From Ancylobacter defluvii (GTDB lineage: Bacteria > Pseudomonadota > Alphaproteobacteria > Rhizobiales > Xanthobacteraceae), in assembly GCF_018390605.1 (NCBI RefSeq), contig NZ_JAHBGD010000002.1, positions 124,001 through 188,000 on the forward strand: a stretch of 64,000 bases of DNA, given 5' to 3'. Each line of letters opens with the position of its first letter. Within the stretch, counting starts at the first letter, position 1. The translations under genes and the position numbers were made by a program. This document shows, piece by piece, positions 40,370-51,850 of this stretch. The notes under the pieces were generated by a model. The model ran no database searches. It had not been told where the DNA came from and saw only the letters and a list, made by a program, of their open reading frames with translations.

Positions 40370-41188
40370 CTAGCTGGCCGGGCCGGGAAACAGGGCATCG
40401 ATGCGTCCGGTAAGGCGATAGGCGGCAAGGCCGATCCACTCGCGCAGCGCCGCATCGGTCATTTCCAGCCCCTCGCTGACCCGTGCGAAGGGCCGGGTCC
40501 ATTGCACCGTCCCGGCCGTGCGGTAGTCCACCGGATAGGCGATCACCGGGAAGCCCGCCGCCACGAAGCTGCCCATGGCGCGCGGCATGTGCAGGGCGGA
40601 GGTGACGAGCAGCCAGCGCTCGCCGGGCCCCGGCCGTGCCAGCGCGCGTGACAGGGCGGCGTTTTCAGCGGTGTTGCGCGAGGCGGCCTCGAACGCGACC
40701 CGTGCCGGGTCGACGCCGATCTGCGGCAGCACCATGCGCACGACATCGGCTTCCGACAGCGACGGCCGCTCGAAATCGCCGCTACCGCCGGAGAACACGA
40801 TGCGGGCCTGCGGATAGCGTCGCGACAGGTCGGCGAGTGCCATCAGCCGCTCCCCCGCCTGGGTGAGGGCCGGTTGCCCGCGCGCCGCGGTGACATCCGG
40901 CCGTTCACTGCCCCCCAGCACCACCACGCCGGTGATGGGTTGGCCATCGTCGACGAAGACCGGAAAACGGTTCTCCAGCGGCACCGCCAGCGCCCGCCCC
41001 ACCGGACCCAGCCCGCAGATCAGCAGGCCGAGGACACCGATCAGCGTCATCCAGCATCCGGCCTGCGGATAGCGCAGCCCCATCAGCATGCCGAGGCCGG
41101 CCAGAAGGGTCAGCGCGCTCGAAGGCACCGCCAGCATCCACACCAGCTTGGCGGCATAGAAGAAGGCCGTGCCCGATACGCCGTCCAT
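40370..41188 (-). CDS. YdcF/ElyC-family membrane protein (DUF218)
   Basis: A 272-residue protein with two N-terminal membrane helices and a DUF218 domain. The domain shows ITGVVVLGGSERPD, YPQARIVFSGGSGD, FEAASRNTAENAALSRAL and LLVTSALHMPRAM. Members such as ElyC act in envelope polysaccharide biology, but the role here is unknown. Its ATG shares a base with the stop of the GGDEF-EAL gene (TGATG), so the two are coupled. Confidence 0.9.
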   Translation of the reverse strand: MDGVSGTAFFYAAKLVWMLAVPSSALTLLAGLGMLMGLRYPQAGCWMTLIGVLGLLICGLGPVGRALAVPLENRFPVFVDDGQPITGVVVLGGSERPDVTAARGQPALTQAGERLMALADLSRRYPQARIVFSGGSGDFERPSLSEADVVRMVLPQIGVDPARVAFEAASRNTAENAALSRALARPGPGERWLLVTSALHMPRAMGSFVAAGFPVIAYPVDYRTAGTVQWTRPFARVSEGLEMTDAALREWIGLAAYRLTGRIDALFPGPAS

Positions 41189-43440
41189 CAGGCCTCCGCG
41201 TGACGCGCGGCACTGTGTTCGTGGGTGTGCTTCACCTGCTCGATATAGCGGCTGAGGCTGCTCGGCGGCATCGGGCTGGCCAGCAGATAACCCTGCACAT
41301 GATGGCAGCCGACCGACTGGAGATAGCGTAGCTGCTCGCGCGTCTCCACGCCCTCGGCGGTGACGGTGATGGCGAGAGCCCGCGCCAGCCGTACCACGCA
41401 GTCGATGATGGCCGCGGCGTCGTCGGTCTGGCCGATGTTCTGGATGAAGCTGCGGTCGATCTTGATGGTGTCGACGCGGAAGCGCCGCAGATAGCCGAGC
41501 GAGGAATAGCCGGAGCCGAAATCGTCGAGGGCGACCCGCACGCCCATGGCGCGCAGCGCCGTAAGCGAGGCGAAGGCTTCCGGCTGGTTGCCGAGCAGCA
41601 GGTTCTCGGTGATCTCGATCTCCAGCCGCTCGGCGGGAAAGCCGGTCTCGTCCAGGATCCGCCGGATCGCCCCGACGAGGTCGCGCATGCGGAAATCCAC
41701 CGGCGACAGATTGACCGCCATCCGCGCCGCGCCCCAGTCGACGGACTGCTCGCAGGCCCGGCGCACCGCCCACAGGTCGAGCTCGGTGATCAGCCCGGAC
41801 TGTTCGGCTATCGGCACGAACTCGGCAGGCGAGACCAGGCCGCGCGAGGGGTGGATCCAGCGCAGCAGCGCCTCGAAGCCGATCACCGTGCGACCGTCGG
41901 CGGCAAATTGCGGCTGGTAGAACAGCGTCAGTTCGTTGTCCTTCAGCGCCCGCTGCAGGTCGGTCTCGGTGTCGCGCCGCTGGCGAACCTCGTGCTCCAT
42001 GCGCGGCTCGAACTGCCGCAACAAGCCGCGCCCGTCGGCCTTCGCCCGATAGACCGCGATGTCGGCGAGCCGGATGAGTTCGCTGGCCTCGGTGCTGTGG
42101 GTCGGAGCGATCGTCGCGCCGATCGAGCCGCCAACGGCTAGAAACTGGCCGCCGACGGCGGTCGGCTTGCGCACCGCCTCCAATATGGCGTTGCCGATGG
42201 TCTCGACCTCGCCCGGCGCATCCCCGATGGGCACCAGGATGACGAATTCGTCGCCGCCGAACCGTGATGCCAGCAGGCCGGGAATCGACAGTTCCTTCAA
42301 TCGCGTCCCGATCTCCGCCAGCAGCACGTCACCGACGTGATGGCCGAGCGTGTCGTTGATGTCCTTGAAGCCATCGAGATCGAGGAAGAAAACCGCCAGC
42401 CGGTGTCCGGTGCCGTCGAGCTGGAGAAGCCGGTCGCCGAGCACCCGCATCAGCATGGCGCGATTGGCCAGGCCGCAGAGCGGATCGACATAGGCGAGCC
42501 GCGAGGCATAGGCCTCGCTGGCGGCGAGGTTTTGCGTGGCCCGGCGCGCATACCACAGCACGCAGGCCGCCGCGGCCAGCAGCAGCACCGTCGTCGCGAT
42601 CAGTGCCGGCAGCAGGGCGTGCAGCAACGCCGTACCGGGCATGTCGGGCTTCCACACCAGCCAGGCCGGCTCGGCCTCGCCGGCGGCGAACGGGATCGCC
42701 ACCCCGTGCTGTCCGGTTTCGGGCGGATTGAGGCTGACGGCCGGCTCGGCGATCCGCAATTCACGAGCCAGCTCGTTCAGGAAATGATCGTCGATGAACA
42801 GCACCGTGACCGCCACCGGTGGCATCTGCTCCGGGGCGATCACCCGGCCATAGTCGGGCGTGATGCTGATGGCGCCGACCAACGCCGGCCGCCCTTCGAC
42901 GCGGACATAGCCGGCACGGAAAGCCGAAGGGGTTCCGGTCCCGGCGCCGGCATCCACATCCTTATGGTTGCTCCGCTCGACGACGGCCTTCTGGACATCG
43001 AGCACGAAGGGAAACAGCGCTGGTTCGTCGAAGGGCGCCTGCTCGCCAGGAACCTGCTCGCCATCGATCGCGGCATAGGCGACCGCGGTATTCAGCACGA
43101 TATAGGAACGGTCGTGATGATCCTGGTCGCGCAGCCACTTGCCGAAATTGCGGTGGACCCAGTCGACATCGAGAAAATAGGCGGTCCGCAGCACGGATTC
43201 GTCCCAATGCGCGAAGCTGGCGAGATCGCGTTGCAGCAATCCGGCCTTGCTCTCCAGAGCGCGGGAGACGAGTTCGGTCCATCGCTGGCGCGCCGCGGCA
43301 TCGACGCGCTCCGCCGCCAGCAGCGCGAAGGCACCCATGGCGACGATCGCCGCGAACACCACCAGCGCCACCGCCAAGATGGTCCGGTCGCTCGCCCTTG
43401 CCGAAGCCATGCCGGCTCCGCTGTGGATCGGAATGCGCAT
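41188..43440 (-). CDS. CHASE4-like sensor with GGDEF and EAL domains
   Basis: A 750-residue cyclic-di-GMP enzyme in the inner membrane. Order: membrane helix (about 20-45), periplasmic CHASE4-like sensor (to about 265), second helix (about 275-300), GGDEF domain with intact RFGGDEF, and EAL domain with EALLRW, NLSP, DDFGSGYSSL, KIDRSF and EGVET. Both active sites look intact, so it could make or break c-di-GMP. No RxxD inhibitory site precedes GGDEF. It is co-translated with the YdcF-family gene. Confidence 0.94.
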   Translation of the reverse strand: MRIPIHSGAGMASARASDRTILAVALVVFAAIVAMGAFALLAAERVDAAARQRWTELVSRALESKAGLLQRDLASFAHWDESVLRTAYFLDVDWVHRNFGKWLRDQDHHDRSYIVLNTAVAYAAIDGEQVPGEQAPFDEPALFPFVLDVQKAVVERSNHKDVDAGAGTGTPSAFRAGYVRVEGRPALVGAISITPDYGRVIAPEQMPPVAVTVLFIDDHFLNELARELRIAEPAVSLNPPETGQHGVAIPFAAGEAEPAWLVWKPDMPGTALLHALLPALIATTVLLLAAAACVLWYARRATQNLAASEAYASRLAYVDPLCGLANRAMLMRVLGDRLLQLDGTGHRLAVFFLDLDGFKDINDTLGHHVGDVLLAEIGTRLKELSIPGLLASRFGGDEFVILVPIGDAPGEVETIGNAILEAVRKPTAVGGQFLAVGGSIGATIAPTHSTEASELIRLADIAVYRAKADGRGLLRQFEPRMEHEVRQRRDTETDLQRALKDNELTLFYQPQFAADGRTVIGFEALLRWIHPSRGLVSPAEFVPIAEQSGLITELDLWAVRRACEQSVDWGAARMAVNLSPVDFRMRDLVGAIRRILDETGFPAERLEIEITENLLLGNQPEAFASLTALRAMGVRVALDDFGSGYSSLGYLRRFRVDTIKIDRSFIQNIGQTDDAAAIIDCVVRLARALAITVTAEGVETREQLRYLQSVGCHHVQGYLLASPMPPSSLSRYIEQVKHTHEHSAARHAEA

Positions 43441-43633
43441 TGCCGCCTTATCCGCCGCGATATCCGATCAGAGAGCACAAGCGCCGGTGTCGAAGCGCCC
43501 CCTTAACGTCGATCTTCGATGTTGCGCGACCTTAACGGGCGAAACTTAATGTGGTTTGAAAGCATTGGACGGATCGCTCGCGCGGCCGATCCCACCCATG
43601 TGACATCATCGCGGCGCTTGACGCAATTGCGGA

Positions 43634-45034
43634 TCAGAACCAGAGCGACGCGATACCCAAAAAGGCGAAGAACCCGATCACATCGGTGATGGTGGTCACG
43701 AAGGGTCCGGACGACACCGCCGGATCCACCCCCATCTTGTTGAGCGTCAGCGGCACCAGGATGCCACCGAGCGCGGCAGCGACGAGATTGATGATCATTG
43801 CCAGCGCGATGATGAAGCCGAGATCGGCGACGCCGAAGCGGGCAAACACCACCGCCGCCATGATCACCGCGAAGACAACGCCGTTGAACAGGCCGACCAG
43901 CAGCTCGCGGGCGATCACCCGGCGGGCGTTGCTGGCGCGCAATTCGCGGGTGGCGATGGCACGCACCGCCACCGTCATGGTCTGGGTGGCGGCGTTGCCG
44001 CCCTGGCTGGCGACGATCGGCATCAGCACCGCCAATGCGACCAGCCGCTGCAATTCGTCCTCGAAGAGCGCAATGACGAAAGAGGCGAGATTGGCGGCGA
44101 TGAGATTGACCAGCAGCCAGGAGAAGCGGCTCTTGGCGATGTACCAGAAGCTGTCGGAAAGCTCTTCGTCGGCGGCGACGCCGCCGAGCGCCTTCACGTC
44201 CTCGTCGGCCTCTTCCTGGATGACGTCGACGATGTCGTCGACGGTCAGCACGCCGACGAGGCGGCCGGCGCCGTCGACCACCGGGGCGGAGATCAAATTG
44301 TAGCGCTCGAAGACGCGGGCGACGTCTTCCTGGTCGTCGGTCGCCTGCACCACGTGCCGGTCGGGCGTCACCACGTCGCCGAGCTTCACCCCCCGCTTGG
44401 TGCGCAGCAGACGGTCGAGCGGCACCGATCCGGTGAGCCGATAGGTGGGATCGACGACGAACAGCTCGAAGAAGGTTTCCGGCAATCCTTCGGTCTCGCC
44501 GATATAGTCCAGCGTCTGGCCGACGGTCCAGAAGGGCGGCAGCGCGATGAACTCGGTCTGCATGCGCCGGCCGGCGCTTTCTTCAGGGTAGTCGAGGCTG
44601 CGCTGCAACGCCGCCCGCTCGGTGAGCGGCAGCTGGCCGAGGATCTCCTGCTTGTCGGCGTCGTCGAGATCTTCGAGAATATAGACCGCATCGTCGGAAT
44701 CGAGGTCGCGCATGCCCTCGACCACGGTCTTGGTCTCCAGTTCCTCAAGGATCTGGACACGGACGGTCTCGTCGAGTTCGGTAAGCGCGGTGAAGTCGAA
44801 ATCGGAGCCGAGCAGTTCGATCAGCTTCGGCCGCGCCGGCGCCGGCAGCGCCTCGAGCAGCCGGGCCATGTCGGTCTCGTGGAAATCGGCGATTAGCACC
44901 CGCAATTCGTCGTCGCGCCCGGCTTCGATGGCGTCGGCGACGCGCTCGATGAAGGCGGGATCGTCGATCAAGGCAAGCCCGTCCTCGGGATCGCGCTCAT
45001 GCGGGCGAACGGCGAGCTCGGTATCGTCGTTCAT
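43634..45034 (-). CDS. mgtE: Magnesium transporter MgtE
   Basis: A 466-residue Mg2+ channel. The N-terminal superhelical domain ([20 protein letters not shown]) and CBS pair ([36 protein letters not shown]) form the magnesium sensor. The C-terminal pore has [21 protein letters not shown] and the last helix near [16 protein letters not shown]. Length and domain order are normal. GGGAGAG precedes the ATG. No M-box RNA was searched for beyond the 133-bp upstream region, where none is obvious. Confidence 0.96.
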
Positions 45035-45167
45035 GCCGCTCTCCCAGGTCGCGGATTCGAGATGGAGCTGTTCTTATGAAGCATCGCCATGGAAGGCAAA
45101 TAGGCCGCCTCGTGCCGCCAACCAGCCTCGCCTGCGGCACATCGCGAATGCGTGTGTGGAGAGAATC

Positions 45168-45452
45168 ATGAGCGGAGCGGCAAGCGTGCGGCTGGTCGTC
45201 CATGGCCGGGTGCAGGGCGTCGGCTATCGCGCCTGGGTGGTCGAGCAGGCCCGGCGCCTGGGCGTCCGCGGCTGGGTCCGCAACCGCCGCGCCGGCACGG
45301 TGGAAGCGCTGATCCATGCCGACGCGGCAACGCGCGAGGCGCTGATCGCCGCCTGCCGGCGCGGTCCACCCGCCGCCAGCGTGCGCGACATCGAGCTGTT
45401 CGAGACCGATGAGCCGGTGCCGGATGACTTCGAGGTGTGCCCGACGCTGTAA
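45168..45452 (+). CDS. acyP: Acylphosphatase
   Basis: A 94-residue enzyme that hydrolyses carboxyl-phosphate bonds. The phosphate loop [14 protein letters not shown] carries the catalytic Arg, and [14 protein letters not shown] carries the catalytic Asn. GGAGAGAATC precedes the ATG. It is convergent with lipB, with 6 bp between the stops. Confidence 0.95.
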
Positions 45453-45458
45453 GGCGCC

Positions 45459-46187
45459 TCAGCGTGGCGGCACGTCGTCGACGGTCGGGCCGAACAAGGC
45501 CTCGAACTCGCGCCGCAGCGCCAGGTCGACATCCCCCATCGTCACCGGCAAGCCGAGATCGACGAGGCTGGTGACGCCGTGCTCGCGTACGCCGCAAGGC
45601 ACGATGCCGCCGAAATGCGCCAGGTCGGGATCGACGTTGAGCGCCACGCCGTGCATCGTCACCCAGCGTCGCACCCGGATGCCGAGCGCGGCGATCTTGT
45701 CCTCGCCCGAGCCGGCACGGTCCCGCCGCCGCACCCAGACGCCGACGCGGTCCTCCCGCCGTTCGCCGCGGACATGGAAGTTCCACAAGGTGCGAATCAG
45801 CCACTCCTCGAGCGTCGCCACGTAGCGCCGCACATCGGGGGCGCGCCGCTTGAGGTCGAGCATCACATAGGCCACCCGCTGGCCGGGGCCGTGATAGGTG
45901 AACTGGCCGCCGCGTCCGGTCTGGAAGATCGGGAAGCGGTCGGGCTCGACGATATCCTCCGGCCGGGCGCTGGTACCGGCGGTGTAGAGCGGCGGATGCT
46001 CCAGCAGCCACACTGTCTCCGGCGCGTCCCCGGCGGCGATCGCCTGGGCGAGCGCATCCATTTCGGCCAGTGCGTCGGGATAGGCGACGGGCGCGGCGGC
46101 GATGCGCCAGCGCACCGGCGACATGCCGGCGCCCGGCAGCATGGAGGCGGTAAGGTCGTCGCGGGCGGGTGGTGCGGCGTGTTGCAT
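45459..46187 (-). CDS. lipB: Octanoyltransferase LipB
   Basis: A 242-residue enzyme that moves octanoyl from acyl carrier protein to lipoyl domains, the first step of lipoate synthesis. Motifs: [50 protein letters not shown] with the catalytic Lys, and GIVPCGV with the acyl-enzyme Cys. The N-terminus is about 20 residues longer than needed; ATGs at codons 16 and 22 are possible starts. lipA is not adjacent. Confidence 0.95.
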
Positions 46188-46273
46188 GACCGGACAGATA
46201 GTGATCGGGAGCGCATCTGTCTCTAGGAGCGGGGCGTCGGACGAACCAGCCTGTCCACAGCTGCGCGCGGCTC

Positions 46274-46302
46274 TTGTGAAGCCCGAACCGATCTGTTAGA
46301 CG
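46274..46302 (+). promoter_or_regulatory. Candidate promoter of tRNA-Leu
   Basis: TTGTGA (46274-46279) and TAGACG (46297-46302) are spaced by 17 bp, about 50 bp upstream of the tRNA. The -10 match is weak, so the assignment is tentative. Confidence 0.3.
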
Positions 46303-46353
46303 ATGCCGCGCCGCGGGGCCAGCCGATGGTTCGGCCCTCTGGTGATTTTGGTT

Positions 46354-46438
46354 GCGGTCGTGGCGGAATTGGTAGACGCGCTGCCTTGAGGTGGCAGTGG
46401 GTAACACCGTGGAGGTTCGAGTCCTCTCGACCGCACCA
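46354..46438 (+). tRNA. tRNA-Leu (anticodon GAG)
   Basis: An 85-nt class II tRNA. The acceptor stem GCGGTCG pairs with CGACCGC, the anticodon loop is TTGAGGT in the stem CTGCC/GGCAG (anticodon 46388-46390), there is a variable arm, the T-loop is GTTCGAGTC, and the 3' CCA is encoded. It reads CUC/CUU codons. The 235 bp after it (to 46673) contain no gene I can support. Confidence 0.95.
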
Positions 46439-46673
46439 TTCATCAGCTTCAGGTCGGCTTCGCGCCCAGGGCGCTCCTTCGCCGACCGAAACTCCTCAGA
46501 AAATCGATAGCTCTTCCCCTTTGCGGGGCACCGAATATAGCCTGGGCCGATCCGCGCTTTCGCCGACCTACGGCATCGGCAACGCGGACATCGTGGAGAG
46601 GTCTCGAACGCCGCGTTGGCGTGACGGCATGACGAAGGGCCGCTTTCGTCCGGCCAATCCACCGAGGCCGCAA

Positions 46674-47975
46674 TCAGGCGGCAGCCAGATCCCGCACCGC
46701 CGCATCCAGCGTCTCGACGACGAAGGCGATGTCCTCATCGGTCGCGGTGAGCGGCGGGTTGATGCGGATCATGTTGTTGGCGCGCAGCACCAGCAGGCCC
46801 GCGGCGAGGCAACGGCACTCGACATCGCCCGCGCTCTCGGTGCCCCGGCCGGCATAGGATCCGTCGAACTCCAGACCCCACATGTGGCCGAGGCCGCGGA
46901 CGTCCCGTACGCTCGGCAGTTCGATGAGCCGGCGCAGCCGCGACAGATGCCGCTCCTCATTGCGTCGGACGCGCTCGACGAGACCATCGCGCTGCATGAT
47001 CTCGATGACCTTCAGCGCCACGTCGCAGCCGACCGGATGGCCCGCCATGGTGATCACCTTGCTCATCGCGTTGCCCGGCTGAAGAAAGGTCGTGTAGATC
47101 GGCTCCGAGACCGCGGCGGCGGCAAGCGGGAAATAGGCCGAGGTGATCCCCTTGCCCATGGTGACGATGTCCGGGCGCACATTGTCGGCATGCTGGAAGC
47201 CGAACCACCGGCCGCTGCGCCCGAAGCCGGTGATCACCTCGTCGACGATCAGCAGGATGCCGTGGCGGCGGGCGAAGGCGGCGACCATCTCCAGAAAGCC
47301 GGGCGGCGGCACCACCACACCGCCGGCAAACGCCACCGGCTCGACGATGATCGCGGCGACGGTCTCGGGCCCCGCGGCGGCGATCCGGGCCTCCAGCCCC
47401 TGCTGCAGGGTGGAGAGGTCCCTGGAGGTCCCATGGATGACGTCGCGCGCACTGGCGGCGTGGAGGAATTCCGGGCTGCGGTCGATATGCGGCGACTGGA
47501 GGATGCCCGGCCCGCTGGCGAAGCTCGCGGTGCCGGTCGAGCCGTGATAGCTGCGGTCCAGCGCGAGGATGTTGCGCCGGGACGGCTGGCCGAGATGCAG
47601 CCAGTAGCGGCGGGCGATCTCGATCGCCAGTTCGTTGGCGCCGCCGCCGGTCGCTGCGTATCGCAGGCGATAGCCGCCGCCGAGCAGTTGGTTCAGCTTG
47701 CCGGAAAGCTCGGTGACCGGCCGGCAGCGATGCTCCGGCGAGCAATAGGCGAGACGCCGATAGCTCTGGGCCGCCGCTTCGATCAGTTCCGCGTTGGCGT
47801 AGCCGAGATTGACGCAGCTATGCCCCGATGCGGCATCCAGGAGCCGCTGTCCTGCCTCGGTGGTGATCCAAGCGCCGGCGCCGGAAAGCACCGAAAGCTC
47901 GGCATGGTCGGGGAGCAGGGCTTCGTCGTTCCAGTACCCGTCCTGGTCAATGTTCTGCACTGGCCGATCCATCAT
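46674..47975 (-). CDS. Class III PLP-dependent aminotransferase
   Basis: A 433-residue fold-type I aminotransferase of the omega/class III group. Visible are the ATGGGANELAIEIAR cofactor motif (GGANE where many have GSEAN), SYHGSTGTASFASG, the VDEVITGFGRSG aspartate that binds the pyridine ring, and the PLP lysine in MGKGITSAYFPLAA. It starts at ATG 47975. The gene stands divergent from the remnants of an alkanesulfonate transporter, so a role with an amino-sulfonate is possible, but other omega-amino acids are equally likely. Confidence 0.88.
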   Translation of the reverse strand: MMDRPVQNIDQDGYWNDEALLPDHAELSVLSGAGAWITTEAGQRLLDAASGHSCVNLGYANAELIEAAAQSYRRLAYCSPEHRCRPVTELSGKLNQLLGGGYRLRYAATGGGANELAIEIARRYWLHLGQPSRRNILALDRSYHGSTGTASFASGPGILQSPHIDRSPEFLHAASARDVIHGTSRDLSTLQQGLEARIAAAGPETVAAIIVEPVAFAGGVVVPPPGFLEMVAAFARRHGILLIVDEVITGFGRSGRWFGFQHADNVRPDIVTMGKGITSAYFPLAAAAVSEPIYTTFLQPGNAMSKVITMAGHPVGCDVALKVIEIMQRDGLVERVRRNEERHLSRLRRLIELPSVRDVRGLGHMWGLEFDGSYAGRGTESAGDVECRCLAAGLLVLRANNMIRINPPLTATDEDIAFVVETLDAAVRDLAAA

Positions 47976-48139
47976 CCCGACAGCCGCTCCCAATCAAGGC
48001 GCACGCCGGCGCCCGCAGGAACATACCCGGTCAGGGATCGCCGCCAAGCGACGATTTGGCACCCTCGGAGCGCAGCCCGAGATCAGCCCGCCAACAGGCA
48101 TCGGCCGGAGATGCACGGCACGCGCCGCCTGCGCCCGGC

Positions 48140-48395
48140 GCCCTGCCGTCGATCTTCGTCGGGCTGCGCTTCGCGCTCGGCATCATGTGGCTGACGCTGA
48201 TCGTCGCCGAGACCATCGCCGCCGCCTCCGGCCTTGGCTACATGGCGATGCAGGCGCGAGTTCCTGCTGGTCGATGTGGTGGTGCAGGCCATCCTCATCT
48301 ATGCTCTGCTCGGCAAGCTCGCCGATGTGCTGACGCGCTGGCTCGAGCGGCTGTGCCTGCAATGGCATCCCGCTTTCCAGATCATGCGGGACTGA
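48140..48395 (+). pseudogene. ssuC: Remnant of sulfonate ABC permease SsuC (frameshifted, N-terminus missing)
   Basis: The sequence encodes the C-terminal third of SsuC in two frames. Frame one gives ALPSIFVGLRFALGIMWLTL to GLGYMAMQAR, ending near 48259. It then shifts at a GCGCGAG run into frame two, which gives EFLLVDVVVQAILIYALLGK and on to the stop at 48395. Intact relatives read MAxxAREFLxTDVVV without a break, consistent with loss of 2 nt from a GC-dinucleotide run. Nothing recognisable as the N-terminal two thirds lies upstream. The gene cannot make a working permease. Confidence 0.88.
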
Positions 48396-48748
48396 TGCCA
48401 TGAGCCCTGATGCCATGAGCGCACTTGCCCCTCTTCCGGCCCATCATCCTGTTCCAGGAGCCGCGTCTGCTGCCCTGGGAGCGGGTGCTCGCCAATGTCG
48501 AGGTCGGCCTGCCGCCGAGCGTGAAAGGCGAGGAGCGTCGCGAGCGCGCCCGCGCCATCCCCGCCGAGCGCGCCGACGAATGGCCTGCGGTGCTCTCGGG
48601 TGGCCAGCGCCTGCTCGCCTTCGACGCGCCGCTGGGCGCGCTCGACGTGTCGGAGGCGCTGGCGCCCGACCTTGCTGTCGAGCTGCCGCATCCTCGACAC
48701 GCTGTTCTCATCCTGACACTGCGCGACGCCAACCCTGAAGGGGCAGAC
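48396..48748 (+). pseudogene. ssuB: Remnant of sulfonate ABC ATPase SsuB (several internal deletions)
   Basis: A frame open from 48425 shows SsuB fragments joined together: [20 protein letters not shown] (Q-loop region), [15 protein letters not shown] (signature), [12 protein letters not shown] (Walker B, with Ala for the usual Glu) and a short DVSEAL piece. Walker A is gone. The helix between the signature and Walker B is deleted, as is the H-loop region. The deletions keep one frame open straight into ssuA. It is a non-functional ATPase. Confidence 0.87.
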
Positions 48749-49705
48749 ATGACAACCCTTACCCGCCGTACCCTGCTGGCCGGCGCCGCCGGCCTCGCCT
48801 CCCCCCTCGCCGCGCCAGGGCTGCGCCCCGCCTTCGCCGCCGGCGAAGTGCGCGTCGGCTTCCAGAAATACGGCACGCTGGTACTGCTGAAGGGCCGCGG
48901 CATTCTCGAGAGGAAGCTGGAGCCGCTCGGCGTCTCGGTAAAATGGGCGGAGTTCGCCGCCGGACCGCAGATTCTGGAGGCGCTCAACGCCGGCGCCATC
49001 GACATCGGCCAGACCGGCGAGGCGCCGCCGATCTTCGCCCAGGCTGCCAGCGACAACCTCGCCTATATCGCCAACGAGCCGCCGGCGCCGAAGGGCGAGG
49101 CAATCCTGGTGCCGCAGGACAGCCCGATCCAGTCGGTGAAGGAGCTGAAGGGCAAGATCGTCGGCCTCAACAAGGGATCCAACGTGCATTTCCTGGTGGT
49201 GAAGGCGCTGGAAAAGAGCGGTCTCGCCTATTCCGACATCACGGTGAAGTTCCTGCCGCCGGCCGATGCCCGAGCCGCCTTCGAGAAGGGCGCCATCGAC
49301 GCCTGGGCGATCTGGGATCCCTTCCAGGCGGCGGCCGAAGTCGCCGTCAAGGCGCGCACCCTCACCACCGCCGAGGGCATCGTGCCGAACTACCAGTTCT
49401 ATCTCGGCTCGCGGAAATTCGCCGACGCCAGTCCGAAGGTGCTCGAGGCCCTCGTCGCCGCCATCGGCGAAACCAATGACTGGATCCAGAAAGACCCGGC
49501 GGCGGCAGTGGCCGAGCTTGCCCCCTCGACCGGCATTCCGGCGCCGGTGTTGGCCATCGCCATCGGCCGGCAGAGCTTCGGCATCGCTCCGCTCACCGAC
49601 AAGGTGATCGCCGATCAGCAGGCGGTGGCGGATACGTTTTTCCAGCTCGGCCTGCTGCCGAAGAAGATCGTCGTCGCCGACGCGGTGCTGCGCCGCGGGC
49701 TCTGA
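48749..49705 (+). CDS. ssuA: Aliphatic-sulfonate ABC transporter substrate-binding protein SsuA
   Basis: A 318-residue periplasmic binding protein for alkanesulfonates. A Tat-like signal ([12 protein letters not shown]) is followed by the family core: [58 protein letters not shown] and [21 protein letters not shown] lies before ATG 48749. The protein looks complete although its permease and ATPase genes upstream are broken, so it is an orphan unless another SsuBC-type pair serves it. The same frame is also open back through the ssuB remnant to 48425. Confidence 0.92.
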
Positions 49706-50020
49706 TCCGGCGAGAACCACGACAAAGAAACCCGCGCCCGATTCGTTGGACGCTGGCACGTTCCATCGGTCGGGCAGTATCACGGCGCAGCAAGACACTG
49801 GCCGCCGCCGGCGCGGCGCGTGGTCGCCGATGCTGCATGCGGAAAGCAACATCAGGGACCTGCCGCCATATTGGTCGCCAAGGGCTGCGCTCTGGATGCC
49901 ACTTAGCACGATGATCGCAGCCGCTTTCTCGGTTCGATAATTGCCCTGGCCCGCCAGCGCCTTTACGGTCCCCGCGAAAGCCGGCTCTGGGATGCCGGCA
50001 CCGTGCGAGAGGGACAATTG
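49706..50020. other. Intergenic region between ssuA and the Kef-type antiporter
   Basis: No gene can be supported in these 315 bp. ORFs here lack ribosome sites and family motifs. It should hold the antiporter promoter, which I could not define. A TGGCACG at the left resembles half of a sigma-54 site, but the matching TTGC is missing. Confidence 0.45.
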
Positions 50021-51850
50021 ATGGCCGCCGAAGCCGCATCCGACGCTGCCGCCCATGGCTTCAACTTGTTGCCGGTCGTCATCCTTCTGGGAGCTGCCGT
50101 TGTGGCGGTGCCCCTGTTCAAACGCCTCGGCCTTGGTTCGGTACTCGGTTATCTCGCGGCCGGCCTCGCCATCGGCCCGTTCGGCCTCGGCCTGTTTTCC
50201 GACCCGCAGTCGATCCTCCACGTCGCCGAGCTCGGCGTCGTCATGTTCCTGTTCATCATCGGGCTGGAAATGCAGCCCTCACGGTTGTGGGCGATGCGCG
50301 GCGAGATCTTCGGCCTCGGCCTCGCCCAGGTCGGCAGTTGCATCGTCCTGCTCGCCTGTGTCGGCCTCGCGCTCGGCTATCCGCTGGTGCCGAGCTTCGT
50401 CGCCGGCACCGGCTTCGTGCTGACCTCCACCGCCATTGTCATGCAGATGCTGGAGGAGCGACGTTCCCTCGCCTTGCCGAAGGGCCGGCGCATCGTCGCC
50501 ATCCTGCTGCTGGAAGATCTCGCCATCGTGCCGCTGCTGGCGCTGGTCGCCTTTCTGGCGCCCGGTGCCGGCGAAGTCACGCTCGGCGAGCGGCTTACCG
50601 GCATCGCCATTGGCCTCGGCTCGGTTCTGGCCTTGGTGCTGGCCGGTCGTTATCTGCTCGACCCGATGTTCCGCATCCTCGGCAAGGCGAAGGCCCGCGA
50701 GGTGATGACGGCGGCGGCGCTGTTCGTGGTGCTCGGCGCGGCGCTCGCCATGCAACTCGGCGGGCTGTCCATGGCGATGGGCGCCTTCCTCGCCGGGGTG
50801 CTGCTGTCCGAATCCTCTTTCCGCCATCAGCTGGAAGCCGACATCGAGCCGTTCCGCGGCGTATTGCTCGGCCTGTTCTTCCTCGGCGTAGGCATGGCCC
50901 TCGATCTCGCGGTGATTGCCGCCAACTGGCAGCTCATCGCGATCTGCGTCGTCGGCTACATGATCCTCAAGATGGTGGCCATCTACGCGGTGGCCCGGCT
51001 GTTCCGCGCCGATCACCACGAGGCGGTCGAGCGGGCGGTGCTGATGGCGCAGGGGGGCGAGTTCGCCTTCGTGCTCTATGCCTCGGCGACCACCGTCGGC
51101 ATCCTCACCATCGAGGAAAACGCCATCCTCACCGCCACCATCATCGTCTCGATGGCGCTGACCCCGCTGATGATCATCGCCCATGACCGGCTGATGCCGA
51201 AGCAGCAAGCCTCGATGGAGGGCATCGAGGCGGCGGCGGATCTGTCGGCGAATGTGCTGATGATCGGCTTCGGCCGCTTCGGCCAGATCGTCAGCCAGCC
51301 GCTGCTGGCAGGCGGCCTCTCGGTCACGCTGATCGAGACGGATCCGGAACTGATCCGTATTTCGCAGGATTTTGGCTTCAAGGTCTATTACGGCGACGGG
51401 ACGCGCCTCGACATCCTGCACGCGGCCGGCGCCCACGAGGCGCGGCTGATCGTGGTGGCGGTGAACGATGGCGACACGGCGGTGAAGATCACCGAGTTGA
51501 TCAAGGCCGAGTTCCCGCTGGTGCCGGTGCTGGCCCGCGCCATCGACCGCGAGAACGCCGCCGAGTTGATCCATGTCGGCGCGGATTTCCAGATCCGCGA
51601 GACCTTCGAATCCGCTCTCGCGCTCGGCGAGCACGCGCTCGCCATGATGGACGTGGAAGAAGCCCGTCGCACGGACATCATCGCCAGTGTCCGCCGCCGT
51701 GACGCCGAGCGCCTCGACATCGAACTTACCGGCGGCCTCTACGACACCTCCGCCAGAAGCCTCATCCTGAGCAATCTGCCGCTGAAGCCGCCCGCCCCCG
51801 AAGCGAAGATGCCGCTGCAGGCGGCCACTGCCGGCGAGGTGGCGGGATGA
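50021..51850 (+). CDS. CPA2-family cation/proton antiporter with RCK domain (KefB/KefC-like)
   Basis: A 609-residue inner-membrane potassium efflux or K+/H+ antiport protein. About a dozen membrane helices span residues 15-385 (including VVMFLFIIGLEMQPSRLWAM and LGLFFLGVGMALDL). A TrkA-N/RCK domain follows with Rossmann motif VLMIGFGRFGQIVSQ and VYYGDGTRLDIL. ATG 50021 has GAGAGGGA upstream. A KefF/KefG-type quinone oxidoreductase is not adjacent. The stop overlaps the DUF924 start. Confidence 0.93.
   Translation: MAAEAASDAAAHGFNLLPVVILLGAAVVAVPLFKRLGLGSVLGYLAAGLAIGPFGLGLFSDPQSILHVAELGVVMFLFIIGLEMQPSRLWAMRGEIFGLGLAQVGSCIVLLACVGLALGYPLVPSFVAGTGFVLTSTAIVMQMLEERRSLALPKGRRIVAILLLEDLAIVPLLALVAFLAPGAGEVTLGERLTGIAIGLGSVLALVLAGRYLLDPMFRILGKAKAREVMTAAALFVVLGAALAMQLGGLSMAMGAFLAGVLLSESSFRHQLEADIEPFRGVLLGLFFLGVGMALDLAVIAANWQLIAICVVGYMILKMVAIYAVARLFRADHHEAVERAVLMAQGGEFAFVLYASATTVGILTIEENAILTATIIVSMALTPLMIIAHDRLMPKQQASMEGIEAAADLSANVLMIGFGRFGQIVSQPLLAGGLSVTLIETDPELIRISQDFGFKVYYGDGTRLDILHAAGAHEARLIVVAVNDGDTAVKITELIKAEFPLVPVLARAIDRENAAELIHVGADFQIRETFESALALGEHALAMMDVEEARRTDIIASVRRRDAERLDIELTGGLYDTSARSLILSNLPLKPPAPEAKMPLQAATAGEVAG

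Follow-up and report, generated by a model that had tools for sequence, protein, structure and literature searches.

In the lineage of Ancylobacter defluvii, a sulfonate importer once encoded by a complete ssuCBA operon has very probably been lost; what is left at the locus is the 3' end of ssuC, a heavily fragmented ssuB and an ssuA gene that is intact. This is ordinary gene decay, the pseudogenisation of one of several organosulfur importers, with one gene still whole. The window analyzed is a stretch of 64,000 nucleotides (G000:C12:124001-188000) of the A. defluvii genome (G000), a 5.28-Mb draft in 29 contigs.

Lesions in ssuC and ssuB

Congeneric loci were retrieved with a 426-residue frame from the locus as the query and a threshold of E 1e-60 or better. 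A match was obtained in 15 of the 30 genomes of the genus, G000 itself being counted. Open frames were then compared at 12 congeneric loci and at one outgroup locus from another family of the same order; the remaining matching congeners, G044 and G045, fall outside this count. The ssuC and ssuB frames are open at all 12 congeneric loci and at the outgroup locus, G020 having them sited about 3 kb from its ssuA. The copies in G000 therefore carry inactivating lesions relative to orthologs that are intact in close relatives, and the decay of ssuC and ssuB, proposed in an earlier note from the letters alone, is borne out by direct comparison with intact operons. In addition, the ssuE gene that precedes ssuC in relatives is absent at the corresponding place in G000.

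Lesions were mapped by alignment against the intact operons of the congeners G008 and G004. The ssuC remnant (48133..48395, forward strand) holds the C-terminal ~84 of ~285 codons. Homology to the intact gene begins at 48133 and ends at the stop codon (48393-48395), the first ~200 codons, or two thirds of the gene, being missing in comparison with both relatives. A 2-nt deletion at 48253/48254, within a GCGCGC run, splits the remaining frame. Both the lost N-terminus and the 2-nt frameshift had been read from the sequence beforehand and are confirmed against the intact operons. A near-perfect tandem duplication of 15 nt (48392..48421, forward strand) spans the ssuC stop and the ssuB start.

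The ssuB remnant (48400..48716, forward strand) retains the start region, followed by six deletions, and ends at the old stop codon (48714-48716). Its first ~10 codons are recognizable by eye at 48415-48444, within a frame extending over 48400-48738. The N-terminal deletion, of ~230 nt against G008 and 246 nt against G004, removes the Walker A motif and leaves the remainder out of frame with its start. The five further deletions measure 15, 42, 84, 54 (G008) or 42 (G004), and 47 nt, four of the five being multiples of three; the loss of Walker A had been recognized in the earlier note, which had nevertheless counted two further lost segments instead of five. The LSGGQ signature is retained. 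The Walker B glutamate is replaced by alanine (AFDAP, versus AFDEP or ALDEP in 13 relatives). The frameshifted frame of 112 residues starting at the old ssuB start (48400-48738) stops ~10 nt before the ssuA ATG, so that translation could still reach ssuA.

A functional SsuABC importer requires a complete SsuC permease, an ATPase with both Walker motifs, and the availability of SsuD and an FMN reductase. The locus offers a frameshifted permease of ~84 codons and an ATPase without Walker A and with an altered Walker B. Its pieces of ssuC and ssuB nevertheless share 77-95% DNA identity with the intact genes of G008, and its SsuA has the family features of an aliphatic sulfonate-binding protein; the locus differs from the known system in its broken ssuC and ssuB, in the missing ssuE and in an SsuA that remains under the cut-off of the narrower SsuA model.

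Pseudogenes that arise when short direct repeats give rise to deletions are a familiar kind in bacteria. The lesions of 2-84 nt seen against G008, bounded by end repeats of 4-10 nt, resemble them, except that ssuA has stayed whole here. Such end repeats are present, in the G008 comparison, at the ssuC 2-nt deletion and at all five internal ssuB deletions. When G004 is the reference, they are lacking at the deletions of 15 and 47 nt and present at those of 2, 42 and 84 nt and at the second one of 42 nt. The ssuB N-terminal deletion shows an end repeat of at most 1 nt against either relative. By chance, an end repeat of at least 4 nt would be expected, for the same deletion lengths, at 2-9% of the positions in G008 and 0-9% in G004. 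The deletions may accordingly be pictured as products of slippage between short repeats, although with G004 as the reference no more than four of the seven (2-nt, N-terminal and five internal deletions) have end repeats.

Sequencing or assembly errors could in principle imitate such damage, as the 2-nt deletion lies within a GCGCGC run and the assembly is a draft. This explanation is highly improbable because several of the deletions are clean; it would moreover have to account for eight distinct lesions, of which six show end repeats in the G008 comparison, and for the ssuE missing from the locus, a combination not expected from single errors.

The intact ssuA and the open frame upstream

The ssuA gene (48749..49705, forward strand) is intact, as had been stated earlier, and encodes a sulfonate-binding protein of 318 residues. 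The protein reaches 227.7 bits against the SsuA_fam model (TIGR01728, cut-off 163.5) over residues 34-315, which places it in the family, and matches the structure 2x26, an aliphatic sulfonate-binding protein, with an E-value of 1e-66. With the narrower model NF008588, the score of 277.4 is below the cut-off of 299. A signal sequence and an upstream ribosome-binding-like GAAGGGG were both judged by eye. A scan covering promoters of the sigma-70 type found no such site in 47950-49960, where 0.2 were expected.

The reading frame of ssuA is open back through the ssuB remnant, which results in a mechanical open frame of 426 residues (48425..49705, forward strand) that is not judged to be a gene. 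The existence of this frame, pointed out in the earlier note, stands; its significance does not. An antisense ORF of 640 residues (48299-50221) spans the same stretch, so the open frame is no evidence of a gene, and 40 of the 1937 stop-to-stop runs in the window extend over at least 428 codons. The frame is no more than chance in GC-rich DNA. Expression of the ssuB remnant and ssuA as one 426-residue protein would be suggested by the open frame itself and by the four internal ssuB deletions whose lengths are multiples of three. However, 51-81% of the repeat pairs (at least 4 to 7 nt) in the intact ssuB of G008 and G004 are already spaced by multiples of three, and in-frame deletions are therefore expected; the in-frame bias was rejected as a sign of selection. 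The first start of the long frame is a TTG at 48425, the SsuA signal sequence would be buried inside the product, ssuA has its own ATG preceded by a ribosome-binding-like sequence, and the antisense ORF is longer. The fusion was consequently rejected as a gene, and its expression is so improbable as to be nearly negligible.

Substitution pattern and spread of the lesions

Private changes on the G000 side, counted by comparing three genomes, include those of the branch to G008 and G004. The pairwise dN/dS of ssuA amounts to 0.109 for G000 with G008 and to 0.182 for G008 with G004. The G000 side of ssuA displays 36 synonymous and 12 non-synonymous private changes (12/48; P 2e-12 versus neutral), to be compared with combined figures of about 38 synonymous and 21 non-synonymous changes for G008 and G004 (Fisher P 0.29). 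What remains of ssuC and ssuB displays ~17 synonymous and 11 non-synonymous changes (11/28; P 1.5e-4 versus neutral), a count made noisier by the badly aligned piece 48644-48688. Since the broken pieces retain a selected substitution pattern, the lesions look recent, that is, young relative to the branch. The pattern of ssuA and that of the broken pieces are similar (P 0.21 for the difference), and the intactness of ssuA is therefore no proof of its use. The substitution test cannot separate recent decay from retention of ssuA.

These counts also bear on the alternative that SsuA is still under selection and delivers sulfonates to another permease of the cell. An intact gene with no relaxation relative to its relatives agrees with this alternative, but the similarly selected pattern of the broken ssuB and ssuC pieces weakens it, as does the negative promoter scan within the promoter type that it covered. 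The spread of the lesions, eight in ssuC and ssuB versus none in ssuA, is a counterpoint to plain decay. If lesions fell uniformly, the chance of sparing ssuA would be ~0.025, or 0.008 with ssuB and ssuA alone, both values being post hoc and based on assumed lengths. Constraint on ssuA is thereby hinted at, but weakly.

Other SsuD-linked and organosulfur-like gene sets

A single SsuD passes the cut-off in G000 (C25:765368-766405, 619 bits versus 518.2). It is followed by a run of genes encoding an MsuE-type reductase, an NMT1-type protein, an ATPase and a permease. The reductase scores 190 bits, below its cut-off of 212.5, and the NMT1-type protein only just exceeds the cut-off of its Pfam model (26.4 versus 24.7) and has no NCBIfam match at 1e-20. 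SsuD and an FMN reductase are thus available in the genome, the latter below its own cut-off. G004 and G044 share this set at 85-95%; G008 shares it too apart from the reductase, which was not found there within the 12 kb examined. SsuE passed its cut-off in none of the eight genomes searched. A further organosulfur-like cluster is located at C11:159-168 kb (L117:6406-15174) and encodes a luciferase-type monooxygenase and a permease along with three NMT1-type proteins, two of which start with a motif that may resemble the DszB desulfinase.

The presence of another SsuD-linked transporter set in the genome would have relaxed selection on the ssuCBA operon, and ssuA would have been spared either because the decay is recent or because a minor use was kept. 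The second transporter set that the earlier note had proposed to look for is thus present on C25, with an NMT1-type binding protein of its own. None of the 11 permeases found in G000 at E 1e-20 or better is a close SsuC partner for the orphan SsuA, their identities being 24-34%. Delivery of sulfonates by a selected SsuA to another permease, for instance that of the C25 or C11 set, is thereby made unlikely, both by this distance and by the NMT1-type proteins that the two sets carry themselves. SsuA may have been repurposed; the more specific proposal of partner switching, in which SsuA persisted after the loss of its own permease and ATPase by supplying an unrelated importer of the cell with sulfonates, its former partners being still recognizable, is regarded as quite improbable.

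ssuA without ssuBC in other genomes

Two samples of loci, which may overlap in species, were inspected for neighbors of ssuA. In the named-loci sample (the best 80 of 191), SsuB and SsuC are present at 45% or more at 72 loci. Among the other eight, L209, L210 and L222 are shortened by contig ends, L221 has divergent neighbors, and L211 has ssuC with ssuB perhaps beyond the stretch; L171, L197 and L236 are without close SsuB or SsuC partners. The order-wide sample was built with a Rhodomicrobium SsuA query (E 1e-110, at most five candidates scored per genome) that matched 43 of 397 genomes. The window's own locus, that of the query and G198 being left out, 40 of the 43 loci were examined and close SsuB and SsuC are absent at three of them (L292, L293 and L294). 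A 30% permease and a 40% ATPase are encoded near ssuA at L293. Judging from these gene neighborhoods, ssuA devoid of close partners is uncommon but recurrent, and this recurrence speaks in favor of retention of SsuA for use with another permease.

One of the solitary loci, L171:4932-7799, comes from Rhodomicrobium sp. R_RK_3; its ssuA, unaccompanied by ssuBC, is located 0.85 kb from a tRNA-Leu(GAG), with lipB beyond. This is the neighborhood of the window, on the opposite strand relative to the tRNA. LipB is found near ssuA at one of the 80 named loci (L171) and at none of the 40 further loci.

Genomic setting and descent of the remnant

The window is collinear with G008 from 40383 to 46441, just beyond a tRNA-Leu (GAG) gene (46354..46438, forward strand), and again from 49961, upstream of a KefB/KefC-type antiporter gene (50003..51850, forward strand). 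The interval amounts to 3.5 kb in the window versus 0.9 kb of other DNA in G008. The match to G004 begins at 49935, and the 8.5 kb beyond are without a match to the window; the place is therefore variable. The interval also holds a class-III aminotransferase gene (46674..47993, reverse strand) for which no ortholog was found in G008, G004 or G022, the best matches by E-value being at 33-36% and the highest listed at 37%. The protein reaches no cut-off among the 25 of 70 NCBIfam models listed. A tRNA-Ile called by ARAGORN at 47793-47882 was taken as spurious, as it lies antisense within this gene. Two more KefB/C-type genes are located at G000:C24:3336-10889, the better match (75%) having one TAA within the part that matches.

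In G008, ~140 kb of one contig separate the ssu operon from kefB. The 18-kb neighborhood of this operon was searched in G000 (40 of 1379 first-look candidates scored), and every stretch longer than 100 nt that reached at least 84% belonged either to the remnants of ssuC and ssuA or to dispersed copies of a ~115-nt repeat. The remnant has therefore either been relocated or lost its flanks. The ~115-nt repeat itself, at the G008 ssu locus (L039:6611-6724), occurs at 27 places in G000 among the matches listed, with 84-95% identity.

Trees of ssuA and of rpoB were each built for 14 genomes. G000, G008 and G004 group together in the ssuA tree (support 83), and the same three group with G044 in the rpoB tree (support 100). 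The ssuA of G044 pairs with that of G022 (support 85) and its rpoB with that of G004 (support 100). The position of G000 in the ssuA tree fits a vertical descent of its gene, and the discordant position of G044 indicates that ssuA was transferred between lineages at least once elsewhere in the genus.

The fragment could also have arrived beside the tRNA-Leu by transfer or transposition instead of descending in place. The variable stretch next to the tRNA gene, the non-orthologous aminotransferase, the distance between ssu and kefB in G008 and the apparent mobility of ssuA in G044 are all compatible with an arrival of this kind. Furthermore, ssuA has a smaller dS to G008 (0.295) than the neighboring genes kefB (0.45), mgtE (0.40) and lipB (0.43), which leaves room for transfer or movement. 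On the other hand, G000 stays with G008 and G004 in the ssuA tree, and the rpoB dS to G008 is lower still (0.147), rpoB being however a slowly evolving and poor yardstick. The repeats of at least 14 nt in 46300-50050 include none that copies the tRNA end, and an integrative island at the tRNA-Leu was rejected on this basis. Taken together, arrival by transfer or transposition is a tentative and somewhat doubtful explanation.

Significance

Loss of the importer by decay provides a clean example of the stepwise loss of a transporter with an intact counterpart in the same genome, whose scars can be read against close relatives. Should ssuA be in use, the locus would also allow a change of partner by a binding protein to be tested.
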